NCBI GenBank assembly: GCA_028725265.1
Contig: JAQYSN010000018.1
Location: 1-36,274, forward strand
Direction: 5' to 3'
Source of the DNA: Spirochaetales bacterium
GTDB taxonomy: Bacteria > Spirochaetota > Spirochaetia > Treponematales > Treponemataceae
Length of the DNA stretch: 36,274 nucleotides
This document shows, one piece after another, positions 18,945 to 21,667 of this stretch. The notes under the pieces were generated by a model. The model did no database searches. It was given only the letters and a program-made list of their open reading frames with translations, and had not been told where the DNA came from. A program made the position numbers and the translations under genes. Position 1 is the stretch's first letter. Each line of letters opens with the position of its first letter.

Positions 18945-19538
18945 TCACAAACTGATTCGACCACGGAAACTTCGTGCAAGGGTCAGTTTATCAGCATATT
19001 CCAAATCGCCGCCGACTGGCAGACCTGATGCTAGTCGGCTTACTTTTATCCCTGCAAACTTACTGTGCAAAACTTGCTGAAGATAAAGGGCAGTCGTGTC
19101 ACCTTCCACAGTTGGATTCGTCGCAATTATAACTTCACTGATACTTTCAGAATTGATTCTTTCCAAAAGCCTTGATATTGAAAGCTGATCCGGTCCAATT
19201 CCGTCAAGTGGCGAAATCAATCCTCCAAGAACATGAAAAAGCCCCTTGTATTCGCCTGAATTTTCAATCGTATTTACGTCCTGAGGCTGCTCCACGATGC
19301 AAATCAAATGGCGCTCCCTCATCATATCCGAACAGATTGGGCAAGGATCGTTTTCTGTATATGCGCCACAAACGGAACAAGGCTTGATTCGTCCATGCAA
19401 TTCAACAAGCTGCTTAGCAAAACGTTCCAAAAAATACTGGTCGGTTTTGAGCATTGAATTTGCAATTCGCATTGCACTTTTTTTACCAATTCCTGGCAAG
19501 CGCGAAAAACTTTCGGCCAATTCTTCAAGAGCGTTCAT
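18945..19538 (-). CDS. recR: Recombination protein RecR
   Basis: Partners RecO/RecF to load RecA at gaps. The 197-residue protein has a helix-hairpin-helix (LPGIGKKSAMRIA, about 14-26), a zinc-finger with Cys54, Cys57, Cys66 and Cys69 (CSVCG...CPIC), and a Toprim domain (CIVEQPQDV, then ATNPTVEGD). The start is the ATG at 19538 because it gives the family N-terminus and overlaps the ybaB stop as TAATG, implying coupling. An upstream in-frame codon at 19583 would add 15 unrelated residues. It is last in the dnaX-ybaB-recR operon. Confidence 0.96.
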   Translation of the reverse strand: MNALEELAESFSRLPGIGKKSAMRIANSMLKTDQYFLERFAKQLVELHGRIKPCSVCGAYTENDPCPICSDMMRERHLICIVEQPQDVNTIENSGEYKGLFHVLGGLISPLDGIGPDQLSISRLLERINSESISEVIIATNPTVEGDTTALYLQQVLHSKFAGIKVSRLASGLPVGGDLEYADKLTLARSFRGRISL

Positions 19539-19867
19539 TAAATACCTGCAAAATTTCCAAACTGACCTAGCATCGAACCGCAAGAATTCTTTATTTCTTC
19601 CTGAACATTTTCATTTGCCTGATGAAGAGCTGCTACAATTATATCTTCCAGCATTTTTACATCATTAGGATCAACAATGGCAGGATCAATATGAATTTCT
19701 TTTACCTCAAATTTTCCGTTTACAGTAACTTTCACAAGCCCGCCACCTGCAGAACCTGTTGCAGAAATCTCGTTGAGTTTTTCTTGTGCATTAGCCAATT
19801 CCTGCTTGATTTGTCCTGCATTTTTCAGGATATCCATCGGATTAAAATTAAAACCGTCAAATTTCAT
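19538..19867 (-). CDS. ybaB: Nucleoid-associated protein YbaB/EbfC
   Basis: Small dimeric DNA-binding protein; the Borrelia homologue EbfC binds DNA and condenses the nucleoid. The 109 residues show the family pattern: MDILKNAGQIKQELANAQEK helix, GGGLVKVTVNGKFEVKEIHID strands, then the C-terminal helix (VKMLEDIIVAALHQANENVQEE). Its ATG abuts the dnaX TAA with no gap, and its stop overlaps recR by one base, so all three are translationally coupled. The gene order dnaX-ybaB-recR is widely conserved. Confidence 0.95.
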   Translation of the reverse strand: MKFDGFNFNPMDILKNAGQIKQELANAQEKLNEISATGSAGGGLVKVTVNGKFEVKEIHIDPAIVDPNDVKMLEDIIVAALHQANENVQEEIKNSCGSMLGQFGNFAGI

Positions 19868-21667
19868 TTATTCACCATCCTCTAAATTTTCTTCCGTTTC
19901 TTCACTGTTTGAATCATCGTTATCGGAATCCGCGCTGGCTGCTACGACCGGAGCCTTTTTAACCTCTGGCTCGCCGCTAGCCATAACACTTACGATTTCA
20001 CCGCGAACAGACTCGCATATCCCCTTTATCACGTCTGGAATATTTTCAGGGACCTTTTCAGTATGAGTTTCCACGATTCGAGCGACAAACTTTACGTTTT
20101 TTCCCCAAATTTCTGATAAAAGCTTTGAATATTGTCTTTCTCGGCTTTCCACCTGATTTTTCGCATAAAGCGAAAGTACATCAGCCGTTATCACACCGTT
20201 TTCAAAATACCATCCCTTCGTCTGATATAAAATCGATGCTGCAAGTTTATCAGTAGAATTCAATTCCTTAATAATTTCCTTCTTCAACTCTTCGATTGAA
20301 AGCGAAGGATTATTGCGGACGATTTCTGTATCGTAAAAACTGTTGAACTTTGAACTCTGCTCTTCTTCAAGTATAGCGGTTACCGGAGCAGAATTCTCTT
20401 TTTTTTGATAGCCGCTAGATTGAAAAGGGCGTTCTGAGCCCTCCTTTCCTTCATCCCTTGGAATCGGTGGAAAATGAAGTTCCTTTTTAGGAGGAGCATC
20501 ATTCTTTACCGTAGTTCCTGTATTCTGCATCAAAAGATTTTTTGCCTGATCAATCGCAGCTTTGATTTCAGGAGCACTTACGTATTTCGTAAGCCAGCAA
20601 AGTCTAGAAACTGCAAGTTCGCATTCATAACGCGGACTTAATGAATATCTGATGTCGCGATAAAGATTCAAAAACAAGGATAGCGCTCGTTCAAGCATTA
20701 CACGGTTCCAACTGGACAGAACCTTCTTAGAAAAGCGCTCTACGTTTTGACCGAGCAAGGCTTCTTTTTGGATTCCGCTTTCGATAAGTAACAAACTTCT
20801 AATATAATCAGCATAGTTTGAAACAAATTGCTCGATTGAAACTCCGCTCGACAAAAGATCATCGATTTTTTCAAGCGCAGATTTTGCATTTCCATCAACG
20901 CAATATTCTGAAATCTCGTTTAGCGCTTCTACACCGACAAGACCGAGTTTATCACGTATTTTTTCGTAAGTGATGTGTCCATCCGAAAATGCAACAACTT
21001 GGTCAAAAAGCGTATAGGCATCTCGGAAACTTCCTGTTGATTCTCTGGCAATCCAATAAAGAGCCTCATCCTCTGCCTGCACTCCGATTTCCTGAGCAGC
21101 TTTTTCAAGGATGCCTTTTATCTGTTCAACAGATCCCAATCTAAAATGGAATTGCTGGCATCGGCTTTTAATTGTAGCAGGAACCTTGTGAAGTTCCGTC
21201 GTTGCAAAAATGAAAATGGCATATTCAGGTGGCTCTTCAATTGTCTTCAAAAGCGCATTGAAGGCTGGCGTTGAAAGCATATGAACTTCGTCAATGATAT
21301 AGATTTTATAGCGTGATGAATTAGGTGGGAACATAATTTCATCTTTAATTTGCCGAACATCATTTATACCAGTGTTGGAAGCACCGTCAATTTCAATTAC
21401 ATCTAGGCTCGAACCCTTGGTTATTTCTTTGCATGAGGTACATTCTTCACACGGAGTTGCACTCGGACCATGCGCACAGTTTAAAGCCTTAGCGAGGATT
21501 CGTGCTGATGATGTTTTTCCACATCCACGTGGACCTGAAAATAAATAAGCGTGAGCAATTTTACCTGATTGAATTGCATTTTTTAATGTTGCAACTACAA
21601 ATTCCTGCCCGACCAAATCTTCGAAACGCTGCGGGCGGCGTCTGGTTGCTGTAACTTCGTATGCCAT
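19868..21667 (-). CDS. dnaX: DNA polymerase III subunit gamma/tau
   Basis: Clamp-loader ATPase and replisome organiser. The start is the ATG at 21667 (MAYEVTATRRRPQRFEDLVG), which lies 6 nt after TATTCT; an in-frame codon 18 nt upstream lies inside this promoter. The protein has 599 residues. Walker A SGPRGCGKTSSARILA is near 43-58, then a zinc site with four Cys (LNC, TPCEECTSC), IIDEVHML near 119-126, and the arginine finger in KSRCQQFHF near 160-168. Domain III ends near 360, then a polar linker and a C-terminal tau-like domain. The linker contains eight consecutive A in the mRNA (20399-20406; codons 421-423) where slippage would produce a shorter protein. Confidence 0.96.
   Translation of the reverse strand: MAYEVTATRRRPQRFEDLVGQEFVVATLKNAIQSGKIAHAYLFSGPRGCGKTSSARILAKALNCAHGPSATPCEECTSCKEITKGSSLDVIEIDGASNTGINDVRQIKDEIMFPPNSSRYKIYIIDEVHMLSTPAFNALLKTIEEPPEYAIFIFATTELHKVPATIKSRCQQFHFRLGSVEQIKGILEKAAQEIGVQAEDEALYWIARESTGSFRDAYTLFDQVVAFSDGHITYEKIRDKLGLVGVEALNEISEYCVDGNAKSALEKIDDLLSSGVSIEQFVSNYADYIRSLLLIESGIQKEALLGQNVERFSKKVLSSWNRVMLERALSLFLNLYRDIRYSLSPRYECELAVSRLCWLTKYVSAPEIKAAIDQAKNLLMQNTGTTVKNDAPPKKELHFPPIPRDEGKEGSERPFQSSGYQKKENSAPVTAILEEEQSSKFNSFYDTEIVRNNPSLSIEELKKEIIKELNSTDKLAASILYQTKGWYFENGVITADVLSLYAKNQVESRERQYSKLLSEIWGKNVKFVARIVETHTEKVPENIPDVIKGICESVRGEIVSVMASGEPEVKKAPVVAASADSDNDDSNSEETEENLEDGE
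20399..20406 (-). other. A8 slippage-prone run in dnaX
   Basis: The minus strand reads C, eight A, G across CAA AAA AAA GAG (codons 421-424). A -1 shift meets TGA after ten codons and a +1 shift meets TAA after five, so any slip gives a gamma-like product of about 430 residues. An AGGAGG lies 33 nt upstream, farther than the stimulator in E. coli dnaX. Confidence 0.5.

Follow-up and report, generated by a model that had tools for sequence, protein, structure and literature searches.

Evidence for a −1 ribosomal frameshift signal in the dnaX gene of a Treponema-family spirochaete, and for its probable exchange with other devices in related genomes

The window, meaning the whole 36,274-nucleotide stretch of DNA analysed here (GCA_028725265.1, contig JAQYSN010000018.1), makes up one contig in a draft genome of 2.25 Mb from a spirochaete whose family includes Treponema. 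Its minus strand carries dnaX, the product of which matches NCBIfam PRK06647 (8e-207) and TIGR02397, with domain III ending at residue 361. The order dnaX-ybaB/ebfC-recR, with ybaB/ebfC and recR at 18945–19867 on the minus strand, is common in bacteria.

19868–21667, minus strand: dnaX coding sequence with an ATG start, full-length tau of 599 aa (66.9 kDa).
19538–19867, minus strand: ybaB/ebfC, encoding a nucleoid-associated protein, the next gene after dnaX (context only).

For comparison, 170 distinct dnaX genes were gathered from the order, 92 of them from the window's family. DnaX of the nearest relative (G001) is 97% identical to that of the window genome (G000) across the first 385 residues, and G002 is a third species of the genus. 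Named relatives in the family are T. bryantii and two Treponema MAGs; some others are presumed here to be T. denticola, T. primitia, T. pallidum and T. brennaborense.

Known routes for dnaX include ribosomal frameshifting in E. coli, transcriptional slippage in Thermus, an inverted arrangement in, for example, Chlorobium, and proteolysis in Caulobacter (PMC3711429, PMC5009743). An earlier note on this DNA had singled out a run of eight As (A8) in dnaX as the source of a gamma-like short subunit. The run is indeed present at 20399–20406, where codons 421–423 read CAA AAA AAA with GAG next. The −1 frame stops 10 codons after it and the +1 frame 5 codons after it, and an AGGAGG (20445–20440) ends 33 nt ahead of it, all as described. 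The AGGAGG had been dismissed as too distant for a stimulator of the E. coli type; it sits instead 10 nt from an in-frame slippery heptamer, C_CCU_UUU. This heptamer emerged from a listing of every in-frame X_XXY_YYZ that has a −1 stop close by; C_CCT_TTT turned up at a comparable position in almost every genus of the family. A complete, conserved −1 cassette lies about 17 nt upstream of A8, the signal spanning 17–60 nt upstream of and around the run.

20440–20445, minus strand: Shine-Dalgarno-like (SD) AGGAGG, with a 10-nt gap to the heptamer, at the same place in G001 and G002.
20423–20429, minus strand: slippery heptamer C_CCU_UUU in the zero frame (P414 F415), in the linker after domain III.
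20415–20417, minus strand: UAG, ending the −1 frame two codons past the slip (−1 reading UCA AUC UAG).
20415–21667, minus strand: predicted gamma-encoding stretch, 415 zero-frame codons followed by Ser-Ile and UAG in the −1 frame, from which gamma would be synthesised.

The predicted gamma has 417 aa (46.6 kDa). As domain III ends well within it, domains I–III, and hence the clamp-loader part, would be retained. The gamma-like product of about 430 residues expected by the earlier note is therefore supported as an outcome, but neither A8 as its site nor the proposed mechanism held.

The position of AGGAGG 10 nt from C_CCU_UUU points to ribosomal frameshifting of the E. coli kind. The E. coli dnaX signal consists of an SD, a heptamer and a structure (PMC6787027), and the window shares with it the gene and the outcome, with gamma ending just past the slip in the linker after domain III. 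The layout is also the same: an upstream SD-like element, an in-frame X_XXY_YYZ and an RNA structure a few nucleotides downstream. The two differ in the heptamer, which is A_AAA_AAG in E. coli and C_CCU_UUU here (or ending CUUA or CUUC, with G_GGU_UUU in one clade), so that the tRNAs for Pro and Phe, rather than tRNA-Lys, would slip. They differ also in the structure, a simple stem-loop in E. coli and a predicted H-type pseudoknot of unrelated sequence in the window and several genera. The window heptamer is not of the strict E. coli type (A_AAA_AAG read by one tRNA-Lys), but a dnaX −1 signal of the general kind is present, with an in-frame heptamer in the linker, an immediate stop, an SD and a conserved downstream structure. 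C_CCU_UUU belongs with the H_HH.U_UU.Y heptamers, a class that ranks with the most efficient ones in E. coli (PMC4066793). Between G000 and G001, synonymous codons 408–434 were more conserved than the rest of the gene (20/23 vs 326/516, p 0.013), a modest signal.

Downstream of the heptamer, an H-type pseudoknot was predicted, with an 11-bp stem 2, one nucleotide between the stems and a third loop of 11 nt.

20407–20417, minus strand: stem 1, 5′ arm UAGCGGCUAUC, with a 5-nt spacer from the heptamer (predicted).
20397–20406, minus strand: loop 1 AAAAAAAAGA, mostly the A8 run at 20399–20406 (predicted).
20386–20396, minus strand: stem 2, 5′ arm GAAUUCUGCUC (predicted).
20374–20384, minus strand: stem 1, 3′ arm GGUAACCGCUA, with one C-A mismatch to the 5′ arm (predicted).
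20352–20362, minus strand: stem 2, 3′ arm GAGCAGAGUUC (predicted).

Because the loop of stem 1 would pair with downstream sequence in this fold, the A8 run would form loop 1. Among 2000 synonymous shuffles of the window gene, none equalled stem 2 and 16 equalled stem 1. Counting against the pseudoknot are the C-A mismatch of stem 1 and the fact that folding with pseudoknots disallowed favours stem 2 by itself in the window. The ten positions of loop 1 read AGAAAATAGA in G001, A-rich with no run. In the 55-gene comparison stem 2 was not evident in G002, nor in many genera whose hairpins are GC-rich or have long loops. The 11-bp stem next to A8, considered separately as a stimulator, proved to be stem 2 of the pseudoknot and by itself was not conserved outside G000 and G001. 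A search of Rfam with the window and six relatives gave chance matches only, nothing near gathering scores.

Family-wide statistics were obtained against synonymous shuffles that kept the protein and codon usage. An in-frame C_CCT_TT occurred in the linker of 63 of the 92 family genes, vs 10.2 ± 2.7 in shuffles. The combination of C_CCT_TTN and a −1 stop at most 2 codons on was found in 54 of the 92, vs 4.1 ± 1.9 and a maximum of 11 in 200 shuffles. The same combination occurred in 1 of 73 unrelated bacteria (null 0.4) and in 1 of 62 other genomes of the phylum set. Sorted by phase, CCCTTT in the family linkers stood 70 times in the slippery phase and 5 and 4 times in the others. A close −1 stop followed 54 of the 70 heptamers (null 45%); on its own the stop is weaker evidence than heptamer and stop together, since the protein makes a close stop fairly likely. 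The stop is TGA, TAA or TAG, built from many different neighbouring codons, and the residue ahead of Pro varies widely, which argues against the protein as the cause. In seven family genes the heptamer is C_CCU_UUA, less favourable if judged by E. coli rules.

The flanking elements exceeded expectation as well. Across the family, upstream anti-SD pairing was −7.7 vs −5.6 ± 0.26 kcal/mol in synonymous shuffles, and the downstream hairpin −13.0 vs −10.0 ± 0.40 kcal/mol, each excess amounting to about 7–8 standard deviations of the mean over shuffles. The spacer from heptamer to stem was 5–7 nt in 49 of 59 genes. The arms of stem 1 differ by genus and pair within each gene (GCGGUUAUC/GAUAACCGC, GCGGUGACU/AGUUACCGC, GCGGAUCGUG/CACGGUCCGC, UGCCGGCUC/GAGUCGGCA and GCGACUGUUGG/UCAGCAGUCGC). 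With one gene per genus from 14 genera, own arms scored −14.1 vs −10.5 (sd 0.79) when arms were permuted between genera, the best of 2000 permutations reaching −13.6. For stem 2, an unselected test of 55 genes gave 12.1 for pairing of each loop with its own downstream sequence, vs 10.7 when permuted (sd 0.34, maximum of 5000, 11.9). Its arms are GUUCCU/AGGAAC in genus g8, and GCUGAA/UUCAGC, GCUGUA/UACAGC, CCACUG/CAGUGG and UUCGCUG/CAGCGAA in genus g4. Across 11 g4 genes and T. bryantii, 5 of 6 pairs change on both sides and none is broken. The g4 covariation score was 0.453, vs 0.118 ± 0.038 when shuffled and at most 0.103 when slid, in an alignment whose rows were picked for an evident stem 2 and in which one unpaired loop base was dropped from seven rows for register.

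Two variants of the arrangement were found within the family. In five g20 species (L100, L104, L112, L113 and L115) the zero frame of dnaX stops at codon 416, and domains IV–V lie in the −1 frame behind CCCTTTTTTAAG (codons 405–416) and a stable 9–11-bp stem. The slip stretch reads CC CCT TTT TTA AG, with U_UUU_UUA overlapping C_CCU_UUU, and the sequence that continues in the −1 frame is related to the C-terminus of tau in a single-frame congener (E ~1e-17). Judged from these reading frames, gamma is the predicted zero-frame product, and tau, its specific part sitting in the −1 frame past the zero-frame stop, would need a −1 shift in the short interval containing the heptamer. A standard gene call would show a truncated dnaX here, while annotation of a window-type dnaX gives only tau. 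The reversed arrangement is that of the two-ORF dnaX genes from GeneTack, in which tau needs the shift (PMC3711429); those are mostly poly-A, whereas the g20 genes use C_CCU_UUU_UUA and a stem, and the window follows E. coli in its arrangement. In the second variant, a g4 clade (L066, L067, L068, L069 and L086; codons 398–415), G_GGU_UUU replaces C_CCU_UUU, with an immediate −1 stop and an upstream SD. The arms in this clade resemble GGCGCG..CGCGCC.

These data bear on the view that there is no recoding, the PF..GG motif of the linker being kept for protein reasons and gamma being absent or made by proteolysis as in Caulobacter. The dnaX of Borrelia has been reported to have no frameshift cis element (PMC9879097), and about one fifth of the family genes lack the cassette and show no evident substitute for it, so that some may manage without gamma. 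However, shuffles that preserve the protein destroy the heptamer and weaken the SD and hairpin, many different codon pairs spell the −1 stop, and the five g20 species could not make tau without a shift. We therefore regard this explanation as very improbable.

The earlier note had favoured transcriptional slippage at A8. On this reading RNA polymerase would insert or skip an A, and reading in the shifted frames would yield products of about 428–433 aa. The run exists, both shifted frames close within 10 codons, slipping on eight As has been suggested for some IS elements (PMC1088944), and in relatives an A9 or A10 of the same phase is followed at once by out-of-frame stops. A8 has no such immediate stop, unlike those sites. 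The shifted-frame stops lie 10 and 5 codons on, no closer than loosely expected by chance. The run is also short for a bacterial RNA polymerase. Baranov et al. 2005 (PMC1088944) saw selection at nine As, one more than in this run, in a large proportion of genomes, and slippage by E. coli RNA polymerase was undetectable with fewer than 7 Ts or 8 As (PMC6260861). The equivalent place reads CAG AAA ATA GAG in G001, and G002 has no A run there; the earlier note had looked to conservation in relatives, and the loss of the run that it named as telling against slippage is what these relatives show.

Nor is the run unusual in its own genome. In 176 kb of coding sequence drawn from 21 contigs or parts, 39 runs of at least eight As were found in 34 of 146 genes, in all three phases, against 56 ± 5 expected from synonymous shuffles. 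Such runs are thus somewhat rarer in coding sequence than in shuffles, as would be expected were slippage avoided. QKK tripeptides were spelled CAAAAAAAA in 3 of 14 cases in the own-genome sample, and the whole window has 18 A8/T8 matches, fewer than the 33.7 in dinucleotide shuffles. A terminator-like hairpin (GGGC/GCCC) upstream of A8, considered as a slippage stimulator, was ordinary (z 0.14 vs shuffles) and too far away. The A8 observation is real but ordinary by itself, and A8 as a conserved slippage site is rejected by the relatives and the genome base rate. Since the run also occupies the predicted loop of another, conserved signal, slippage at A8 can be given very little credence.

Equally hard to credit is a −1 ribosomal frameshift at A_AAA_AAA within the run, stimulated by the 11-bp GAAUUCUGCUC/GAGCAGAGUUC stem: that heptamer is in frame, of the efficient V_VV.A_AA.R class (PMC4066793) and 2 nt upstream of a strong fold (−16.3 vs −9.6 kcal/mol in shuffles), but it is lost in G001 and G002, its spacer is short, its −1 stop is as much as 10 codons away, no SD lies at the proper distance, and the conserved upstream cassette accounts for the same elements. 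A minor secondary slip may occur there.

We consider it highly probable that dnaX of the window carries a programmed −1 ribosomal frameshift signal, composed of C_CCU_UUU, the SD and a pseudoknot with A8 as loop 1, which makes a gamma-type DnaX. The in-frame heptamer, SD spacing, immediate −1 stop, complementary stems, and their conservation and covariation can be read directly from the compared genes. In the proposed mechanism, the elongating ribosome would pair with AGGAGG 10 nt upstream of the slip site, and the pseudoknot 5 nt downstream would hold it with tRNA-Pro and tRNA-Phe on C_CCU_UUU. A fraction of ribosomes would re-pair one base back, on CCC UUU, and terminate at UAG once Ser-Ile had been added; their product would be the 417-aa protein with clamp-loader domains I–III. 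Unshifted ribosomes would read on to the 599-aa tau. The occurrence of the shift in cells, the efficiency of that shift and a place for gamma in the clamp loader and holoenzyme are inferred.

The idea of slippage on an A run, which failed for the window, fared better among relatives, both in further genera and in other families within the order. In two sister families (f4 and f3 sets), 9 of 20 and 9 of 26 genes have an A9 or A10 in phase 1 whose out-of-frame stop comes within 2 codons; such sites also occur in several genera belonging to the window's own family, among them the T. denticola group. In the sister families (L039–L041, L044–L047, L136–L140, L152, L153 and others, some of them GC-rich), A10 in phase 1 is followed 0–1 codons later by TGA in the −1 frame; these are probably transcriptional slippage sites of the Thermus type. 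The Thermus thermophilus dnaX, which slips on A9, serves the same purpose as the window's signal, and such A9/A10 runs are shared with the window's relatives (the T. denticola group and the two sister families). The window differs from it: the Thermus type has about nine or more As and a run kept in close relatives, whereas the run in the window has eight, is neither conserved nor followed at once by stops, and lies among conserved elements that would act on the ribosome.

Both devices meet in some genomes. In L107, which we take to be T. denticola (ATCC 35405), and in L026 and L102, the SD, C_CCT_TTT and immediate −1 stop remain, with a weak hairpin only, and A10 with TGA lies 26 codons past C_CCT_TTT. 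Thus T. denticola seems to carry parts of both the ribosomal and the A-run device, and these three genes possibly record a change from ribosomal to transcriptional recoding. In other families of the phylum set (L192, L194, L197, L201, L243 and L254), A10–A11 occurs in the dnaX linker with close stops in both shifted frames. At codon 391 of L049 (A11), 401 of L234 (A10) and 384 of L239 (A9), a zero-frame stop lies directly past the A run and the remainder of tau is in a different frame; these would be either two-ORF dnaX genes or homopolymer errors in drafts. The dnaX of L101, presumably T. pedis-like, has a zero-frame stop at codon 419 and a second frame break beyond, with no evident slip site, suggesting either decay or sequence errors.

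Within the window's family, 50 genes have the cassette, 4 have both cassette and A run, 8 an A run, 5 the inverted arrangement and 25 none, five of the last being the G_GGU_UUU clade. On a DnaX tree, with low support at many forks, the cassette is found throughout the family, broken here and there by A-run sites. Taken together, it is probable, with less assurance than for the window's own signal, that dnaX in this one order has repeatedly swapped its short-product device. The devices would be a −1 cassette of C_CCU_UUU or G_GGU_UUU with a hairpin or pseudoknot, A9/A10 slippage with an out-of-frame TGA, and the inverted arrangement with tau made by a shift.

In a literature search of open-licence papers, no account of dnaX recoding in Treponema or spirochaetes was found. 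The cassette would add a dnaX shift site that does not rely on tRNA-Lys and a compact, predicted bacterial cellular pseudoknot for mechanistic work, and the related genomes offer a set in which ribosomal and transcriptional recoding appear to replace one another. The importance of gamma beyond a few model bacteria was for long in dispute. A signal kept by compensatory change across the family, and replaced where lost, suggests that two DnaX forms are worth keeping here. If the repeated exchange is real, there would have been lasting selection for two DnaX forms in spirochaetes, and slipping by the ribosome and by the polymerase would be interchangeable over short times.
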